Made by a program: the position numbers and the translations under genes
DNA from: a virus
Virus record (IMG/VR): IMGVR_UViG_3300047356_000823
Location: 1 to 45,962 of that record
Length of the DNA stretch: 45,962 nt
Reading direction: 5' to 3' (one strand)
Shown here: in pieces, positions 20,002 to 33,441 of the stretch
How positions within the stretch are numbered: the stretch's first letter is position 1
How the letters are laid out: the number at the start of each line of letters is the position of its first letter
The notes under the pieces: generated by a model
Told to the model about the DNA's origin: nothing
Database searches by the model: none
The model's input: only the letters and a program-made list of their open reading frames with translations

Positions 20002-21357
20002 ATGATTTCTATTACAAGATTATCTAATAATTTTGAAATAGTTGATCTTATTACTGATACCCAGTTAGACAAAACAAAGTTAATGCGTTTTGCTTCTGGG
20101 TATCAGCAACTGTTCCGTAAACATAATCTAAAAAAAGGTGACAGAATTGGCCTTGCTCTGCAAGAAGACTTCCATCATCTTGCCTGTGTCTTCGCGGCAA
20201 TTGATTATGGACTTATAATTGTTATAAGTGGTGAACATGAAATAACAGACAAATATATTTCTAGAAGACAAATAAAAGCATTTATATCACGGGGTGTACA
20301 ACCTTGTACAGTTCATGCAACTAATGTTAATCATATTGAATTAACAGAAGACGTTACTGAATCAAACAAAGATTACATTATCGATCATTCTGATATTTTA
20401 GTAGAAGCATTAACAAGTGGTAGTACTGGAGAACCTAAGTGTATTCAACATACACATTTTAGTGTAGAAAGTGCAACAGAAAATAGCATAAAACATTATT
20501 GGAAAGAAGCAGACACTAGTTGGTTTTTCCATAACATTGTACATTTAGGTGTAAGCAGTGTTTACTTTTTTCCTGCATTGTTTTCTAGTAAAAGAATTAT
20601 TTTACCTCCGTTAGATAATCCATATGATGAAGTATTACTGTCTAAGTATAAACCAGACATAATGTTAATATTTCCATCACATTACCAAGAGTATTCTAAA
20701 CAAGGAATACATTTAAGAGATTTAAGTCACGTTAAGTGGGTACTAACAGGCGGAAGTGTAATAGACCGTTCTTTTATTAGACGCATGATAAAAAATCAAG
20801 GCGTAGAAAAAGTTGCAGTAATATATGGACTTACTGAATGTTTACCACCTTTAATACATAAAGTTGTTGACAAAGAAAATTTAGACTCGTATAATGTTAA
20901 AGAGATGGGTTACATCATCGACAGTACAGGAACATACGATATTAACAAAGATGAAATACTTACAATTAAAGGTAGTAATCATTTATGTAAAAGTATAAAC
21001 GACAAACCTGTAGATACATTTATTACTCAAGATGTTGTAAGTGCAGGTAGTGATTCATTTTTCTTTGAAAAACGTAATAGCGATTTAATAAGAATAAATG
21101 ATACATTAATAAATCCACAACAACTAGTACCAAATTGGTTAGATGGTTATTGTTGTGTCTTTAGTACTTCACAGACACACGTTGTAGTGGTTATGCATCA
21201 CAAAAAAGTAAATGTAAAAGAGTTGATTCAGAAATTAACCGTTAACGGAATCAACCATGATAAATTAATTACGCCGATAAAACTTAATGTTCTCGGCAAA
21301 CCAGATATCAATAAATTAAAGGGAATCTATGATAGGGCAAATAAGGGCACATCTTAA
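20002..21357 (+). CDS. ANL-superfamily adenylate-forming enzyme (acyl-CoA synthetase / AMP ligase-like)
   Basis: The 451-residue protein has the main ANL landmarks in order: the phosphate-binding loop TSGSTGEPK at 138-146, the A5 motif YGLTE at 275-279, an A7-like region with TQD at 342-344 in place of TGD followed by FFEKRNSDLIRIN at about 354-366, and a possible A10 lysine in LGKPDINKLKG near 431-441. An N-terminal part has LKKGDRIGLALQ, typical of the domain start. Such enzymes activate a carboxylic acid as acyl-AMP and pass it to CoA, a carrier or another acceptor. Substrate is not predictable. It is shorter than usual (500-600), mostly by a compact C-terminal domain. It lies directly after the Hc1-like gene and overlaps the next gene by 29 bases, so it belongs to the gp47-gp46 operon. 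Its base use does not look foreign. Confidence 0.85.
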   Translation: MISITRLSNNFEIVDLITDTQLDKTKLMRFASGYQQLFRKHNLKKGDRIGLALQEDFHHLACVFAAIDYGLIIVISGEHEITDKYISRRQIKAFISRGVQPCTVHATNVNHIELTEDVTESNKDYIIDHSDILVEALTSGSTGEPKCIQHTHFSVESATENSIKHYWKEADTSWFFHNIVHLGVSSVYFFPALFSSKRIILPPLDNPYDEVLLSKYKPDIMLIFPSHYQEYSKQGIHLRDLSHVKWVLTGGSVIDRSFIRRMIKNQGVEKVAVIYGLTECLPPLIHKVVDKENLDSYNVKEMGYIIDSTGTYDINKDEILTIKGSNHLCKSINDKPVDTFITQDVVSAGSDSFFFEKRNSDLIRINDTLINPQQLVPNWLDGYCCVFSTSQTHVVVVMHHKKVNVKELIQKLTVNGINHDKLITPIKLNVLGKPDINKLKGIYDRANKGTS

Positions 21358-21571
21358 AGAAGCCGGCAAATCGTATTTCGCACATACAAAATTTGCAATC
21401 GTGGCTGGCTTAGACTTGATACTAACCGGTATCATCAGCATCATACACGGCATTGTTCCAACTCTGTTTCCTTTTTATGCAGAGAAAAAGATTGACGAAT
21501 ACCATCAAAAGGTGTTATTGTTAAACAAACATAGGAAGAAGAATGCCAAGCAAACAAAAAGCAAAAGGTAG
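21329..21571 (+). CDS. Small DUF6356-like membrane-associated protein
   Basis: The 80-residue product reads HLKEAGKSYFAHTKFAIVAG, then a hydrophobic segment at about 28-50 (LDLILTGIISIIHGIVPTLF) and PFYAEKKIDEYHQKVLLL, with a Lys-rich tail. The HLKE-x-x-x-SYF-H and IHGI-PxLFPFYA pattern fits the DUF6356 family as I remember it, found in phages and alphaproteobacteria; function unknown. One membrane helix is likely. It overlaps the end of the ANL enzyme gene by 29 bases and the nuclease gene by 29 bases, both in other frames. Confidence 0.7.
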   Translation: MIGQIRAHLKEAGKSYFAHTKFAIVAGLDLILTGIISIIHGIVPTLFPFYAEKKIDEYHQKVLLLNKHRKKNAKQTKSKR

Positions 21572-22052
21572 TAATTGGGAAAGAGACGTTGCACGTTTCT
21601 TATCTGATCTATATCAGGAATCTTTTATTAGAGCACCTGGCTCAGGAGCCTATGTAGGCGGAACTAATACTGTCCGTAAAGAAGTATTACATGAAGGTCA
21701 AATACGTGGATTCAAAGGGGACATTGTTCCTGGACAATCATTTCCAAAATTTAATGCAGAATGCAAATCGTATAAAGACTTTCCATTTCATCAACTGTTA
21801 ACTTCAGACAAAGTTCGTATGCTGGAAGACTGGCTGGACCAATTAATGGATGCGGCAGATGATGGTGACTTCAATATTTTAATAATGAAGTTTAACAACA
21901 AAGGCAAATTTGTAGCAACCCCCTCAACACATCAACTTAAAACAACACGACAATTCACATATCATTCCCCCAAGCACAACACATGGCTCATTACAGGCTT
22001 CGACGAATTTTGGCAAAGAAACGCAGACAGAGTTAAGACTCTGTGTGCATAG
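21543..22052 (+). CDS. PD-(D/E)XK-like endonuclease (Hjc/RecU-like fold)
   Basis: The 169-residue protein has the order of motifs expected of the PD-(D/E)XK fold: KGSNWERDVARFLSDLY with Glu13 as helix-one acid, then RAPGSGAYVGG, then FKGDIVP with Asp60, then FNAECKSY with Glu72 and Lys74. These are consistent with a metal-dependent nuclease such as an archaeal-type Holliday-junction resolvase. The recombination-operon context (gp46/47 upstream) supports a role in branched or broken DNA, but a DNA-degradation or defence role is also possible. It starts inside the previous gene and is followed by the structured RNA region. Confidence 0.65.
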   Translation: MPSKQKAKGSNWERDVARFLSDLYQESFIRAPGSGAYVGGTNTVRKEVLHEGQIRGFKGDIVPGQSFPKFNAECKSYKDFPFHQLLTSDKVRMLEDWLDQLMDAADDGDFNILIMKFNNKGKFVATPSTHQLKTTRQFTYHSPKHNTWLITGFDEFWQRNADRVKTLCA

Positions 22053-22494
22053 GCAAATCATTTAGCACATAAGGTTAGCGGGCCAGTTTAATATACCGCT
22101 GTGGAAAAACTTATAGAGATATAAGACACGCAACACACTATGAAACACGGCAGACCGTGAATGTCCATTCAAACAAATTGGGACGTGGATTGGTGTAGTA
22201 CGAATGCTAACGTATGACAAACGCACATAACTCTTAAAAACTGTAACGATAGGAACGAGGTTACAGACTGCTAACGCAGGATCAGTATAGGTTGGGAAAG
22301 GCTAGAGCCCATAGAGTTGCGATAAAATACCTATTTCCAATAAAGTCTGGCTGGGGCGAACTCACATGAAGACAGGACGGAACCTTAAAAGTGGTTCCGT
22401 CTGACTGAAACAATCTACATGATGACTATCGCTTCGCTCTTAACTTATATGTATTTCTAATTAAAAATAAACAACGAACGAAAGTGAAGTTGTT
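22053..22494 (+). ncRNA. Candidate large structured noncoding RNA in a gene-free interval
   Basis: No credible reading frame occurs here, but perfect hairpins follow one another. AGCGG/CCGCT (22077-22081 with 22096-22100); CTTATA-GAGA-TATAAG with a GNRA loop (22110-22125); CACGG-CAGA-CCGTG (22146-22159); GTCC/GGAC (22163-22184); TACG/CGTA (22199-22214); CTGTAAC/GTTACAG (22241-22266, 12-base loop); CTGC-TAAC-GCAG (22268-22279); ATAGGT/ACCTAT (22287-22334) enclosing a GGC-TAGA-GCC hairpin (22300-22309); GACGGAACC/GGTTCCGTC (22376-22401). The GNRA loop and the downstream terminator favour the plus strand. It does not match tmRNA, RNase P, group I intron or riboswitch patterns that I know. Exact ends are unknown. 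Confidence 0.6.
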
Positions 22495-22528: not shown

Positions 22529-22759
22529 TTATAAGATAGGTAATCCAGTTTTATTAACTGTTTTAATATTCTCTTCGATAATATCGGCTATGTGTTTAGT
22601 GTCAGATCTCGACAACATATAAGCCTGATCTAAATTAATACCACCACGCATATACCATACGATTCGAGTAAGTTCTTTTTTTATAATTTGGGCTTCTTTG
22701 TCGTAGTCTTTAACCATCTGTGCAATTTCTTCGTTGGCGAGACTCAGAAGCCTTATACG
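22529..22759 (-). CDS. Tail chaperone -1 frameshift extension (T-like domain, gp51 position)
   Basis: In the -1 frame relative to the gp26-like gene, the sequence from 22759 is open for 76 codons to TAA 22531-22529. It reads RIRLLSLANEEIAQMVKDYD, then KEAQIIKKELTRIVWYMRGG, and ends KTVNKTGLPIL. A Met at 22717 could give a 62-residue protein, but it has no convincing ribosome site and the conserved-looking helix begins before it. The open frame joins exactly at a T TTT TTC slip site. This matches the lambda G/G-T layout in which a minority of chaperone molecules are extended. The fused product would have 353 residues. Independent initiation at 22717 remains possible. Confidence 0.75.
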   Translation of the reverse strand, partial: RIRLLSLANEEIAQMVKDYDKEAQIIKKELTRIVWYMRGGINLDQAYMLSRSDTKHIADIIEENIKTVNKTGLPIL

Positions 22760-23589
22760 AAAAAATTTGCGTTATCGAATAATATTGGAGTCGACAACTC
22801 CGTTTCACAGTTAGAACACTTACCTTCAAATTGTTTAAAACTGTTTTTATCTCTTTGTTGGTCTAGGTGATCTTGTACCGCTTTAAAAGTTTTTCTATCA
22901 ACGTTTGATACAAACTCTGCAATATGATTTGGATCCTCTACAACAACTCCATTAGACATTTCAATTTTACAAATTGTTTTTCCAATTAACCCTACTGTTA
23001 AGGCAGTAAGTCTTAAAAATGCATCTTGAAATAATTCACGCTTCTTTTCATCGTCAATAGTTTCATTATTAACAATTTTCATAATTTTTGATTCTTCAAA
23101 ATTACGCAAACTTTCAGCATTAATTTCTTTATAGTTTAATGGTTGAAATGTAATTTTTAAATCACCTACTTCAAGTAAGTCGTCAAATTTCCAATTTTTA
23201 GTTTCATCCATTAAATGTGTTAAGTCAATTCCAAAATCATTTTTGGTTTGACATTTAGGACAGCCGATGGTAATATCCATTTGCTCTCCATAAGTTGCAA
23301 TACGAACGGCTATTAATAATGCGTCCATGTCGATACTAGGAACTTGCCAAGGATCCGAGATCGCTGGTACACAACTTCTTATTACTTCAACAGTACTAGC
23401 ACCGTTGAGTAATGCATCTGGCGTTTTTAGGACTAACTCGTCCCTAGCAGTCATTGGGTAAATCCCAAGTTCGCCGTTAGGTGGCAAGTCTAAAACACCT
23501 TGTTTATAGTACTTTCCTTGACTAGGTAGTGCAATATAAACTTCTGGTTTACGAAAATATCCCACTAAAGGGTTTTGATTGTTTTCCAT
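22753..23589 (-). CDS. 26: gp26-like baseplate hub / tape-measure chaperone
   Basis: The 278-residue protein starts MENNQNPLVGYFRKPEVYIA and has two CxxC pairs, C110-PK-C113 and C258-SN-C261, that could bind a zinc ion, as in gp26-type proteins of marine T4-like phages. Further marks are LPSQGKYY, YPMTARDELVLKTPDALLNG and IRSCVP. T4 gp26 (208 residues) is needed for hub assembly. Here the gene stands back to back with the tape-measure gene, the usual place for a tail assembly chaperone that coats the tape measure. The last codons are AAT TTT TTC GTA TAA, which carry the slip site described separately. Confidence 0.8.
   Translation of the reverse strand: MENNQNPLVGYFRKPEVYIALPSQGKYYKQGVLDLPPNGELGIYPMTARDELVLKTPDALLNGASTVEVIRSCVPAISDPWQVPSIDMDALLIAVRIATYGEQMDITIGCPKCQTKNDFGIDLTHLMDETKNWKFDDLLEVGDLKITFQPLNYKEINAESLRNFEESKIMKIVNNETIDDEKKRELFQDAFLRLTALTVGLIGKTICKIEMSNGVVVEDPNHIAEFVSNVDRKTFKAVQDHLDQQRDKNSFKQFEGKCSNCETELSTPILFDNANFFV
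22759..22765 (-). promoter_or_regulatory. Predicted -1 ribosomal frameshift site T TTT TTC
   Basis: The heptamer T TTT TTC lies in the zero frame two codons before the stop of the gp26-like gene. Slipping back one base gives TTT TTT CGT and enters a 76-codon open frame. The heptamer has the canonical X XXY YYZ form; P2 uses TTTTTTG in its E/E' genes. Only weak pairing (CTTC with GAAG) is visible downstream as a stimulator. Confidence 0.75.
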
Positions 23590-23601: not shown

Positions 23602-23652
23602 GATAAATAACTATATAAAATACTTCTTATGAAGTATACATAGTTATTTATC
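23602..23652. promoter_or_regulatory. Palindromic divergent late-promoter pair
   Basis: GATAAATAACTAT at 23602-23614 recurs inverted as ATAGTTATTTATC at 23640-23652, a perfect 13-bp inverted repeat. Inside it ATACTTC-TTAT-GAAGTAT (23620-23637) is a second perfect hairpin. Each outer arm starts with a GATAAATA late box, one pointing right to the tape measure and one left to the gp26-like chaperone. Each promoter must read through the other. Confidence 0.8.
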
Positions 23653-26077: not shown

Positions 26078-27763
26078 ATGAGTTGGAAAAAATATTTTAA
26101 AGTAGTAGACACTAATAGTATGACGGGATCTACAACTATGCCCAGAGATTCTCAGGCAGATGTAGGATTTAAAAACTATCAAAGTCATCTACCAGAAGTT
26201 TACACTGGACATCCAAATCGTATTGAAAGATATAATCAATATGAAACAATGGATAGTGACAGTGAGATCAATGCGGCATTAGATATCCTTGCAGAATTTA
26301 GTACTCAAGCAAACGTAGAAAATAGAACACCTTTTGATTTATTTTTTAAAGATGCACCAAGTGACTCTGAAGTAAAAGTTTTAAAAGAAGCACTCTTTAG
26401 TTGGGTAAGTCTTAACGATTTTGATAAAAGAATTTTTAAAATGTTTCGTAATACTTTAAAGTATGGCGATCAAGTATTTGTAAGAGATCCAGAAACATTT
26501 CAATGGCATTGGGTAGACAATGCAGACATTGTAAAAGTTATTGTAAACGAAAGTAAAGGTAAAGAACCTGAACAATATGTTTTAAGGAATATTAATCCTA
26601 ATTTTCAAAACTTAACAGTAACACAACCACAACACAGTGATTTAAAATCTGGTAGTCAAATGGGCGGACAAGGTCCAGTTAACAACCAAGGAAACATTTA
26701 TAATTTAAATCAACCTGGATCAACGGGAACAAGATTTAGTACACAGTCAAACGAAATGTCAATTGATGCAAGTCATGTTGTACATATTAGTTTAACAGAA
26801 GGACTTGATCCTAATTGGCCATTTGGTATTAGTGTATTAGAAAGTGTATTTAAAGTATACAAGCAAAAAGAATTATTAGAAGACGCTATTATTATTTACA
26901 GAGTACAACGTGCTCCGGAAAGACGTGTGTTCTATATTGACGTAGGTAATATGCCAGCACACATGGCAATGGGTTACGTTAACAGAGTTAAAAACGAAAT
27001 ACACCAAAGACGTATTCCAACACAAAGTGGTGGCGGTGGAAGTATGATGGATGCAACATATAATCCATTAAGTATTAATGAAGATTACTTCTTTCCACAA
27101 ACTGCTGAAGGTAGAGGTAGTAAAGTTGAAACATTACCAGGTGGAACAAACTTAGGTGAAATTGATGACTTAAAATACTTTACTAATAAGTTGTTTAGAG
27201 GTTTAAGAATTCCAAGTAGTTACTTACCAACAGGAGCAGAAGACGGAAGTTCGGTTGCAAGTGATGGTAGAGTAGGTACTGCATTAATTCAAGAATATAG
27301 ATTTAATCAATACTGTAAACGTTTACAAGCAACAGTATCAACATCATTTGACCATGAGTTTAAAATGTATTTAAACTGGAAAGGTTATAATATTGATAGT
27401 GCTATGTTTGAGTTGCGTATGAATGAACCACAAAACTTTGCGGCATACAGACAAGCAGAACTTGATAATCAACGTGCAACTTTATTCTCTAGTTTATCAC
27501 AAACTCCTTACTTGAGTAAACGATTTATGCTTAAACGTTTCTTAGGTATTAGTGAAGAAGAAATGGCTGAGAACGATAAATTATGGGCAGAAGAAAATGG
27601 AACAACAACGGCACAACAAACAGTAGGCGAAGACTTACGAAGTGTTGGAGTTACTCCAGGCGGACTTGGAACTGATTTAGAAACAGGAGCAGAACCCGAA
27701 GGTGGCGACACAGACATTGATGCACCTGAAGGTGGCGACACTTCCGACGACGTAGAACTGTAA
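26078..27763 (+). CDS. 20: Portal vertex protein gp20
   Basis: The 561-residue protein has the known gp20 sequence landmarks: MSWKKYFKVVD at the start; ERYNQYETMDSDSEINAALD; FGISVLESVFKVYKQKELLEDAIIIYRVQRAPERRVFYIDVGNMP; EDYFFPQTAEGRGSKVETLPGG; and LFRGLRIPSSYLP. T4 gp20 has 524 residues. It forms the dodecameric ring at the unique vertex through which DNA enters and to which the neck joins. An acidic, Gly-rich C-terminal tail (about 40 residues with GGDTDIDAPEGGDTSDDVEL) is longer than usual. It is first gene of the head operon. Confidence 0.97.
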   Translation: MSWKKYFKVVDTNSMTGSTTMPRDSQADVGFKNYQSHLPEVYTGHPNRIERYNQYETMDSDSEINAALDILAEFSTQANVENRTPFDLFFKDAPSDSEVKVLKEALFSWVSLNDFDKRIFKMFRNTLKYGDQVFVRDPETFQWHWVDNADIVKVIVNESKGKEPEQYVLRNINPNFQNLTVTQPQHSDLKSGSQMGGQGPVNNQGNIYNLNQPGSTGTRFSTQSNEMSIDASHVVHISLTEGLDPNWPFGISVLESVFKVYKQKELLEDAIIIYRVQRAPERRVFYIDVGNMPAHMAMGYVNRVKNEIHQRRIPTQSGGGGSMMDATYNPLSINEDYFFPQTAEGRGSKVETLPGGTNLGEIDDLKYFTNKLFRGLRIPSSYLPTGAEDGSSVASDGRVGTALIQEYRFNQYCKRLQATVSTSFDHEFKMYLNWKGYNIDSAMFELRMNEPQNFAAYRQAELDNQRATLFSSLSQTPYLSKRFMLKRFLGISEEEMAENDKLWAEENGTTTAQQTVGEDLRSVGVTPGGLGTDLETGAEPEGGDTDIDAPEGGDTSDDVEL

Positions 27764-31280: not shown

Positions 31281-32528
31281 ATGTCTGATATTTTAGCAGA
31301 AGGTCGTTGGGACAATACTAAAGAAGCCCTTTTAGATGGTTTACAAGGTACTCGTCGCAAGACAATGTCTACTATCCTGGAAAACACTAAACGCCACTTA
31401 ACAGAAGCGGCAACTAGTGGCGCAACAGCGGCAGGTGGAGTAGCACAATTAAACAAAGTAATTTTACCCGTAATTAGACGTGTAATGCCTACAGTTATCG
31501 CAAACGAAATTGTTGGTGTACAGCCTATGCAAGGTCCAATTGCTCAAATTCACACTTTAAGAGTTAAGTACAACTCTGCAAACACTATTAACCCGGCAAA
31601 TGGTGCGGCTATCCAAGCAACAACAAATGACGGTACAAACTTAGGTGCTGGTGACGAAGCGTTAGGTCCAAAGGACATAGCGGCTGGTTATTCAGGTACT
31701 GAAAGTGCGGCAGGTGTTAAAGCGGCAGGTACAACAGCAAGTGGATACTTAGAAGGTGTTCCAGGTAATACTCTTTCTATTGAAATTCTACGTCAAACAG
31801 TAGAAGCTCAAACTAGAAGATTATCAGCTCGTTGGACTTTTGAAGCGGCACAAGATGCTCAATCACAACAAGGTATCGATGTAGAAGCAGAAATCATGGC
31901 GGCATTAGCCCAAGAGATTACTGCTGAGATCGACCAAGAAGTTCTTGCAAGTTTAAGAGCTTTAGCGACTGCTGGTTCAACGGCTTTCGGTGCAAACACT
32001 GAAGCATACGACCAAGCGGCAGTTAGTGGTACAGCGACATACGTGGGTGATGAACACGCGGCATTGGCTGTAGCAATTAACAGAGTATCTAACAAAATCG
32101 CACAGAGAACAAGACGTGGCGCAGGTAACTGGGCTGTTGTTTCTCCAACTGCATTAACAATGTTACAAAGTGCATCAACTTCAGCGTTCGCAAGAACAAC
32201 TGAAGGTACTTTTGAAGCACCAACAAATACTAAATTTGTAGGTACTTTAAACAGTGCAATGAAAATCTACGTTGACAGTTATGCGGCTGATTCAGAAGCA
32301 GTTCTTGTTGGTTACAAAGGTAGTTCAGAAGCGGACGCGGCGGCATTCTATTGTCCTTACGTTCCACTAATGAGTTCAGGTGTAGTACTTGATCCAGCAA
32401 CATTAGAGCCACTAGTAGGCTTTATGACACGTTACGGTTACAGTGAACTTTCACAAACTAGTAGTTCACTTGGAAACGCGGCGGATTACGTTGGTAGAGT
32501 AACTATTGCTAACCCAACATTTAGTTAA
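31281..32528 (+). CDS. 23: Major capsid protein gp23
   Basis: The 415-residue protein has gp23 hallmarks: KHLTEAATSGAT-like N-terminal region with RHLTE-A (cleavage expected between residues 42 and 43 by gp21), IRRVMPTVIANEIVGVQPMQGPIAQIHTLRVKY, and RWTFEAAQDAQSQQGIDVEAEIMAALAQEITAEIDQEV, plus the C-terminal GYSELSQTSSSLGNAADYVGRV. It folds as an HK97-type capsid subunit. T4 gp23 has 521 residues, so this is a compact version as in pelagic phages. An AGGAGA ribosome site precedes the ATG, and a strong terminator follows 48 bases after the stop. Confidence 0.98.
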   Translation: MSDILAEGRWDNTKEALLDGLQGTRRKTMSTILENTKRHLTEAATSGATAAGGVAQLNKVILPVIRRVMPTVIANEIVGVQPMQGPIAQIHTLRVKYNSANTINPANGAAIQATTNDGTNLGAGDEALGPKDIAAGYSGTESAAGVKAAGTTASGYLEGVPGNTLSIEILRQTVEAQTRRLSARWTFEAAQDAQSQQGIDVEAEIMAALAQEITAEIDQEVLASLRALATAGSTAFGANTEAYDQAAVSGTATYVGDEHAALAVAINRVSNKIAQRTRRGAGNWAVVSPTALTMLQSASTSAFARTTEGTFEAPTNTKFVGTLNSAMKIYVDSYAADSEAVLVGYKGSSEADAAAFYCPYVPLMSSGVVLDPATLEPLVGFMTRYGYSELSQTSSSLGNAADYVGRVTIANPTFS

Positions 32529-32612: not shown

Positions 32613-32620
32613 TTGTACAA

Positions 32621-32668
32621 CGTTCAGCCGATATAGGCCGGAAGTAAGCAACTATGCTGAAGGAACGC
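32621..32668 (+). promoter_or_regulatory. Glutamine riboswitch (glnA / Downstream-peptide type)
   Basis: CGTTCAGCC at 32621-32629 pairs its CGTTC with GAACG at 32663-32667 (P1). GCC/GGC at 32627-32638 forms P2. The conserved core CGGAAGTAAGC (32639-32649) is followed by a small GC-AACTAT-GC stem and CTGAAGGAACGC. These are the marks of the glnA/Downstream-peptide RNAs that bind glutamine, known from cyanobacteria and marine phages and usually upstream of a short ORF. The short ORF here starts 26 bases downstream. Confidence 0.82.
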
Positions 32669-32693
32669 ACTTAACTGTAAAAAGGAGAGTGTA

Positions 32694-32913: not shown

Positions 32914-32988
32914 GTATTGCTTATCATAATGATAAGTTTATGGGGAGCCATCCTCGTATTACATAGAACGTAACAAAGGAGAAATAAA

Positions 32989-33441
32989 ATGGGAAGACCA
33001 ATAAACAAAAGATTTTTCGGCGTACCTACAGCAGGTGGCAATGAAATTAAAGTTAACTTTCATGACGGTTCATCTGTTGTTGAAGGATATATTGCAAAAC
33101 AACTAGGTAGTAAAAAGTTTTCAGTTAAAGCAACTGGAACACCTGGTACTGCATACACTCGTACACTAACAACTGGTAAATTACCAGCGGCATTAACTGG
33201 AACAGAAATGATTATTTCTGTAAAAGGTGATGATGGTGAAACTTATGGTGTATCCAAAATTGCAGGACGTAAAGTAACATTAGCACAACCAAGTGCTACT
33301 GGTTCTAATGCATTAGACGGAAAGTCAGTGGCTTGGAACTTTGCAACATCTAATACTGATGGAGCAGTACAGTTTGAAGAAGCAGGTGACGACGATACTG
33401 CATCAGGTACAGACGATACAGACTTCACAGAAGACGCTTAA
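32989..33441 (+). CDS. Small virion structural protein, unknown
   Basis: The 150-residue product (MGRPINKRFFGVPTAGGNEI) is beta-rich with an acidic C-terminal tail (EEAGDDDTASGTDDTDFTED). Proteins with a MGRP(I/L)NK(R/K)(F/Y)FG start are common near the capsid gene in marine T4-like phages and are found in virions, by my recollection; their exact role is not known. It is a single-gene unit between a TATAAATA promoter and a strong terminator, which suggests high late expression. Confidence 0.7.
   Translation: MGRPINKRFFGVPTAGGNEIKVNFHDGSSVVEGYIAKQLGSKKFSVKATGTPGTAYTRTLTTGKLPAALTGTEMIISVKGDDGETYGVSKIAGRKVTLAQPSATGSNALDGKSVAWNFATSNTDGAVQFEEAGDDDTASGTDDTDFTEDA

Follow-up and report, generated by a model that had tools for sequence, protein, structure and literature searches.

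A conserved slippery heptamer and −1 reading frame in a gp26-like gene of an uncultured T4-like phage: a probable programmed frameshift

Introduction

In the lambda gpG/gpGT and P2 E/E' systems, a short open reading frame (ORF) slips near its end, the −1 extension yields a minor long form, and the tape-measure gene is adjacent. For T4-like phages, work by Vladimirov, Gautam and Davidson that appeared in 2022 in Virology (566:9-15) reportedly identified the tail assembly chaperones (TAC-N/TAC-NC), and its abstract is said to describe frameshifting as conserved in several T4-like groups, with T4 using genes 26 and 51. A 2025 paper (PMC12846349) mentions polyT −1 slip signals in the TAC-N genes of T4-like phages, citing Vladimirov et al. 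2022, and also a conserved −1 frameshift with a polyT signal in the chaperones of Vandenendeviridae and Andersonviridae (phage Adele, Moogle). The frameshift arrangement in T4-like phages is already described, and the case presented here is a very well supported one.

We analysed a window of 45,962 nucleotides, positions 1 to 45,962 of one viral record (IMGVR_UViG_3300047356_000823). A first-pass annotation had proposed that a gp26-like gene in this window ends in a programmed −1 frameshift, that the design is that of lambda and P2 with the tape-measure gene next door, and that the arrangement would unify T4 gp26 and gp51.

Results

A gp26-like gene in a T4-like structural module

The zero-frame product of the gene (Table 1) matches PF12322 (T4_baseplate: gp26, gp51) over residues 40-277 (E 2e-18), and its whole-protein score of 67.4 bits lies above the Pfam cut-off of 24.5 bits by which we defined membership. 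It also matches the baseplate hub family phrog_150 (E 1.2e-19) and contains two CxxC pairs (110/113 and 258/261), and a GGAG lies 9 nt 5' of the ATG of its ORF. We modelled the zero-frame protein and the −1 extension separately. The AlphaFold2 model of the zero-frame protein has a pLDDT of 87, and its named fold matches are gp26-like viral proteins only; PDB searches with sequence and fold returned no match.

Table 1. Features of the frameshift locus, in window coordinates
Feature	Position	Strand	Remarks
−1 frame extension, 76 codons + stop	22529..22759	(-)	C-domain of putative long form, TAC-C equivalent
Internal ATG, codon 15 of extension	22715..22717	(-)	only candidate start near slip
Short stem-loop AGGCU-UCUG-AGUCU	22740..22753	(-)	predicted; starts 5 nt past heptamer
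gp26-like zero-frame protein, 278 aa	22753..23589	(-)	putative short form, TAC-N equivalent
Slippery heptamer T TTT TTC	22759..22765	(-)	in phase near 3' end of gp26-like ORF
Tape-measure protein, 785 aa	23663..26020	(+)	phrog_167 E 1.6e-11, phrog_794 E 3.4e-11
Portal protein gp20	26078..27763	(+)	PF07230 E 4.2e-109

The gp26-like gene adjoins the tape-measure gene and is transcribed divergently from it. As judged by sequence similarity, the gp20 portal gene near the locus confirms a T4-like structural module. Between the divergent gp26-like and tape-measure genes lies an imperfect palindrome, GATAAATAACTAT...ATAGTTATTTATC (23602-23652). Its arms are the sole window matches to ATAAATAACTAT at one mismatch or fewer, two matches being not above chance by count, and in sequence they resemble back-to-back late promoters.

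The structural-gene region of the phage also encodes an AMP-binding (adenylate-forming) enzyme of 451 aa (20002-21357; PF00501, E 1.2e-26), a gene present in one of 80 related loci examined. The major capsid gene gp23 (31281-32528) is followed at a short distance by two RNAs that are near each other, a glutamine riboswitch aptamer (RF01739, 54.6 bits; 32619-32671) and a freshwater-2 RNA (RF02980, 60.9 bits; 32920-32991).

The slippery heptamer is conserved in sequence and phase

The gp26-like ORF ends GCA AAT TTT TTC GTA TAA. Across the 12,561 codons of 30 window genes, TTTTTTC occurs in frame once, at this site. Relatives were taken from close IMG/VR matches and from 80 loci found by a family-alignment search, and in each we inspected the 3' end of the gp26-like gene. 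T TTT TTC is in frame in 85/85 readable relatives (63 non-redundant), at identities down to about 30%; these include the cultured jumbo phages Atu_ph07, Phosso, PA5oct, GAP32, Munch and BF (~30-33% identity). The zero-frame stop falls 1, 2, 3, 4, 6 or 11 codons past the heptamer, and the position of the heptamer is fixed. The codon 5' of it always ends in T and encodes a variable residue (Asn, Ser, Asp, His, Thr or Ala). Calculated from each gene's own codon usage and assuming independence, the joint log10 probability of NNT TTT TTC in all 63 is about −59, a value to be taken as a guide because the 63 loci share ancestry.

The same frameshift design as in the window is found in KVP40, Aeromonas phage 65, P-SSM2 and Syn9, and HTVC008M, Cr30 and phiM12 have T TTT TTT in place of T TTT TTC. 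Close to the 3' end of the first ORF, an X XXY YYZ heptamer in conserved phase is present in the window and its relatives alike. Comparison at the sequence level confirms that the heptamer at the end of the gp26-like gene is beyond chance.

The −1 frame encodes a conserved extension

After the slip, the −1 frame runs from 22759 to 22532, includes IVWYMRGGINLDQAYMLS and stops at 22529-22531; it is already open from 22771, just 5' of the slip. The heptamer and the 76-codon open frame named in the first-pass annotation are thus as described. That annotation had also called for a comparison of relatives, and among all usable ones both the slip site and the −1 frame are kept, with the extension homologous and open back to the slip. 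Complete extensions are all 70-77 aa, following directly after FF without a break, and the −1 product begins at once with a conserved FFR. Over the whole extension dN is lower than dS in the compared pairs, a measure that covers the extension only, the last 100 zero-frame codons being left out (indel). Within extension codons 3-14, before the internal Met, variable columns number 4, 4 and 9, mostly at third positions of the −1 frame.

The extension is predicted to form a four-helix fold (pLDDT 90.8; 56 sequences). The segment before Met-15 falls within the first two predicted helices and shares one predicted fold with the rest. Pfam and PHROG searches of the window-lineage C-domain returned no family, and a weak fold match was obtained to the tape-measure chaperone of Moogle (prob 0.77, E 0.76).

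We judge from its sequence context that the internal ATG is not used. As the first-pass annotation had noted, it has no ribosome site: a search for a Shine-Dalgarno sequence 5' of the ATG at 22717 (GAAATTGCACAG) gave no match. The residue at this position is Leu in 4/7 sequences of the nearest group. Among relatives, the first Met of the extension is scattered over codons 2 to 47, one locus has none at all, and Shine-Dalgarno matches for the second ORF are almost absent. The annotation had named, as findings that would speak against frameshifting, a well-spaced ribosome site for the second ORF combined with the lack of a conserved heptamer, or a frame not maintained before the Met; what the relatives display is a heptamer and frame that are kept, a Met that is not, and ribosome sites that are rare.

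RNA structure 3' of the slip site

The last base of the zero-frame stop falls inside the predicted short stem-loop. The 15-nt stretch that holds this hairpin hardly varies among eight near relatives, despite synonymous divergence elsewhere in the extension, and is too conserved for a covariation test in the window lineage. A different structure occupies the equivalent place in 23 marine relatives whose stop lies four codons after the slip: a stem of 10 bp, 3 nt past the heptamer, that is longer than the window hairpin and has compensatory changes, pairs 6-35 and 7-34 alternating between G-C and A-T. Pairing in this stem is 86.5%, against 79.4% in shuffled alignments (0/2000 shuffles as good) and 33-52% in slid versions. 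The same stem showed no excess pairing in a group of 25 whose zero-frame stop comes one codon past the heptamer, and an Rfam search at the slip site returned no family. Together these patterns hint at an RNA stimulator of frameshifting without proving one.

A conserved noncoding element beyond the −1 ORF

Between a PDDEXK ORF and the −1 ORF lies a conserved noncoding element of ~370-440 nt (window 22053-22430). In an alignment of the window copy with 10 relatives, 56 pairs are predicted on the + strand, and compensatory changes occur in 19 of these. At least 120 viral contigs contain an exact match to its 24-nt core, and a profile of the element matches 80/80 loci examined, spanning most of the element in 61/80. 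The element keeps its place in synteny, flanked by a gp46-like gene (58 loci) and by gp26 (49 loci). Neither Rfam at E<=1 nor 50,697 phage records yielded a match. From its sequence, the element seems to be a large structured RNA, new in kind, that uncultured T4-like phages carry, and it is more unusual than the frameshift gene.

The ORF directly before it is PDDEXK_15 endonuclease-like (21543-22052; E 1.1e-23) and is probably a local insertion, because tblastn found no match to it in the other 80 loci carrying the element. At the corresponding place 3' of the −1 ORF, 680-800 nt carry no annotation in GAP32, BF and Munch (L012:4053-4856, L014:4053-4855 and L013:4041-4723, respectively). These stretches are 74-88% identical in blocks among themselves. 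They match nothing in Rfam at E<=0.1, do not resemble the element of the window, and are possibly another structured RNA.

One gene or two: gp26 and gp51

We counted PF12322 copies in whole phage genomes at E<=0.01. Comparison separated genomes with one copy from genomes with two. P-SSM2, Syn9, HTVC008M, Cr30, phiM12, KVP40, Aeromonas 65, Vibrio 2.275 and RM378 have a single copy, as do the six jumbo phages and five long viral contigs. With RM378 as the sole exception, each of these has both a −1 extension and the heptamer (TTTTTTC or TTTTTTT). T4, RB43, Aeromonas phage 31 and KARL-1 have two (gp26 and gp51). T4 gp26 ends KEFFELL and is without the slip site. The two genes are divergent in T4 and tandem in RB43.

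T4 gp51 spans the whole PF12322 model (E 3.9e-52) and continues into a C-terminal tail. A profile of −1 extensions of the KVP40/cyanophage type, built from seven frameshifting phages without any T4 sequence, matches this C-terminus in T4 (E 2.8e-7), RB43, Krischvirus and Aeromonas 31, and weakly in KARL-1; gp51 aligns collinearly with the gp26-like domain plus the −1 extension. The window-lineage extension profile, searched directly against gp51, gave no match, and it is linked to T4 gp51 solely by a chain through cyanophage-type extensions, which it matches weakly (hhalign p 1.3e-4, 33 columns). The existing record of KVP40 notes a small downstream ORF resembling the gp51 C-terminus, and that of P-SSM2 names the downstream ORF gp51. 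A tree built from the PF12322 domain unites the gp51 sequences in a single clade (100) and places gp26 on long branches.

As gp51 is a gp26-like domain plus a homologue of the −1 extension, gp26 is the counterpart of the short form and gp51 that of the long form, and T4 therefore encodes the two forms as paralogous genes. The proposed unification of gp26 and gp51 holds in substance, with two amendments: gp51 is not merely the −1 ORF, having a full gp26-like domain and a tail, and the idea is not new in kind.

Rhodothermus phage RM378 (L114/L123) has TTTTTTTGG, and its second ORF (3498-3674 of L123) is in the +1/−2 frame relative to the gp26-like ORF. At the site, TCC TTT TTT TGG, the ribosome may shift by −2 or by +1, or the sequence may be wrong within the T7 run. 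We offer tentatively, and with somewhat less than even confidence, the view that a single recoded gene was ancestral to the whole T4 superfamily including its jumbo relatives, that duplication replaced frameshifting in T4 (essential genes 26 and 51), and that in an outlying member (RM378) the recoding has become one of another kind.

Discussion

Proposed mechanism and rival explanations

Programmed −1 ribosomal frameshifting very probably makes two proteins from the gp26-like gene. Most ribosomes would stop at the TAA just past the heptamer and release the 278-aa gp26-like protein. A minority would slip back one base on T TTT TTC, with both tRNAs re-pairing on TTT/TTT, bypass the stop and append the 76-aa helical domain, giving a 353-aa fusion. 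Comparison shows a heptamer and a −1 frame that are kept, a split between one-gene and two-gene phages, and homology of the gp51 tail; from there we infer slippage itself, how often it happens, a stimulatory RNA and the role as chaperone. Homology with gp26/gp51, together with the design of lambda gpG/gpGT, makes short and long tape-measure chaperones the most likely identity of the two products. By analogy with the lambda pair, the short form may coat the tape-measure protein, and the tail of the long form may bridge to proteins of the tube or hub while the phage tail is being assembled. In T4 and the phages nearest to it, paralogous genes 26 (short) and 51 (long) would supply the same two forms.

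The GenBank records of KVP40 and P-SSM2 annotate the downstream ORF as a separate gene, which would be expressed from an internal start or by termination-reinitiation and overlap the first incidentally. In Atu_ph07 and Phosso an ATG overlaps the zero-frame stop (ATGA), which would also permit reinitiation. Among relatives, however, the start is not conserved, Shine-Dalgarno sequences are almost absent, and the frame is open and conserved all the way back to the slip. A separate gene also gives no reason for an invariant heptamer, and it is largely refuted by four loci (L004, L007, L008 and L018) with no ATG before codon 37; we regard it as very unlikely.

Transcriptional slippage on the T6 run would yield a mixed mRNA population, and the homopolymer at the site, extended to T7 in HTVC008M, Cr30 and phiM12, is in its favour. 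Efficient transcriptional slippage needs runs of about nine, though, and the run here is shorter, with six T before an invariant C. Tandem re-pairing of tRNAs requires exactly the phase T TTT TTC, and the covarying RNA stem 3' of the slip in marine relatives also speaks against slippage of the transcript, to which we give slightly less credence again. Nothing besides the homopolymer favours an assembly error or a recent frameshift mutation that split one ORF. Dozens of independent assemblies and finished phage genomes share the arrangement, with residues conserved on both sides, and this recurrence already refutes such an error, whose probability we consider negligible.

Programmed frameshifting in this family would give a concrete role model, that of a short and a long tape-measure chaperone, to T4 gp26 and gp51, essential hub proteins whose role has long been obscure. 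It would also be a case in which a protein ratio can be set equally well by gene duplication or by recoding. The genome records we looked at either lack the −1 extension or annotate it apart from the gene.

Comparison with known systems

With lambda and P2 the window shares a short ORF, a slip site near its end, a −1 extension and an adjacent tape-measure gene, a likeness of design. The heptamer is another one, and the tape-measure gene, which is downstream in lambda and P2, is divergent here; therefore the two genes are not on one transcript as in lambda. The first-pass annotation was right that the tape-measure gene is next door, and its divergent orientation is a detail to add. A chaperone pair directly upstream of the tape-measure gene and co-oriented with it is not what the window has. 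GAP32, PA5oct and Munch likewise have their corresponding large ORF in divergent orientation, and in KVP40 and P-SSM2 the chaperone pair is followed in the same orientation by a large ORF, a tentative counterpart at most. Co-orientation with the tape-measure gene is typical, not required, and it is through PF12322 that the window is likened to the chaperone family. The chaperones of Vandenendeviridae and Andersonviridae are again alike in design, their signal being GTTTTT, unlike that of the window.

The closest counterparts are the T4-like TAC-N/TAC-NC proteins, which belong to the same protein family (gp26/gp51) as the window protein. The window belongs to a large lineage of uncultured phages, which has jumbo-phage kin, and the C-domain there is longer than theirs (70-77 aa versus 57-65 aa). 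In T4 itself, gp26 corresponds to the unshifted product and gp51 to the gp26-like domain plus extension; T4 differs in having two separate genes, a gp26 that lacks the slip site and an extension shorter than that of the window. Possible additions to what is known of these systems are the jumbo lineage, a C-domain outside the Pfam and PHROG families, the stem with covariation and the unusual reading frame of RM378.
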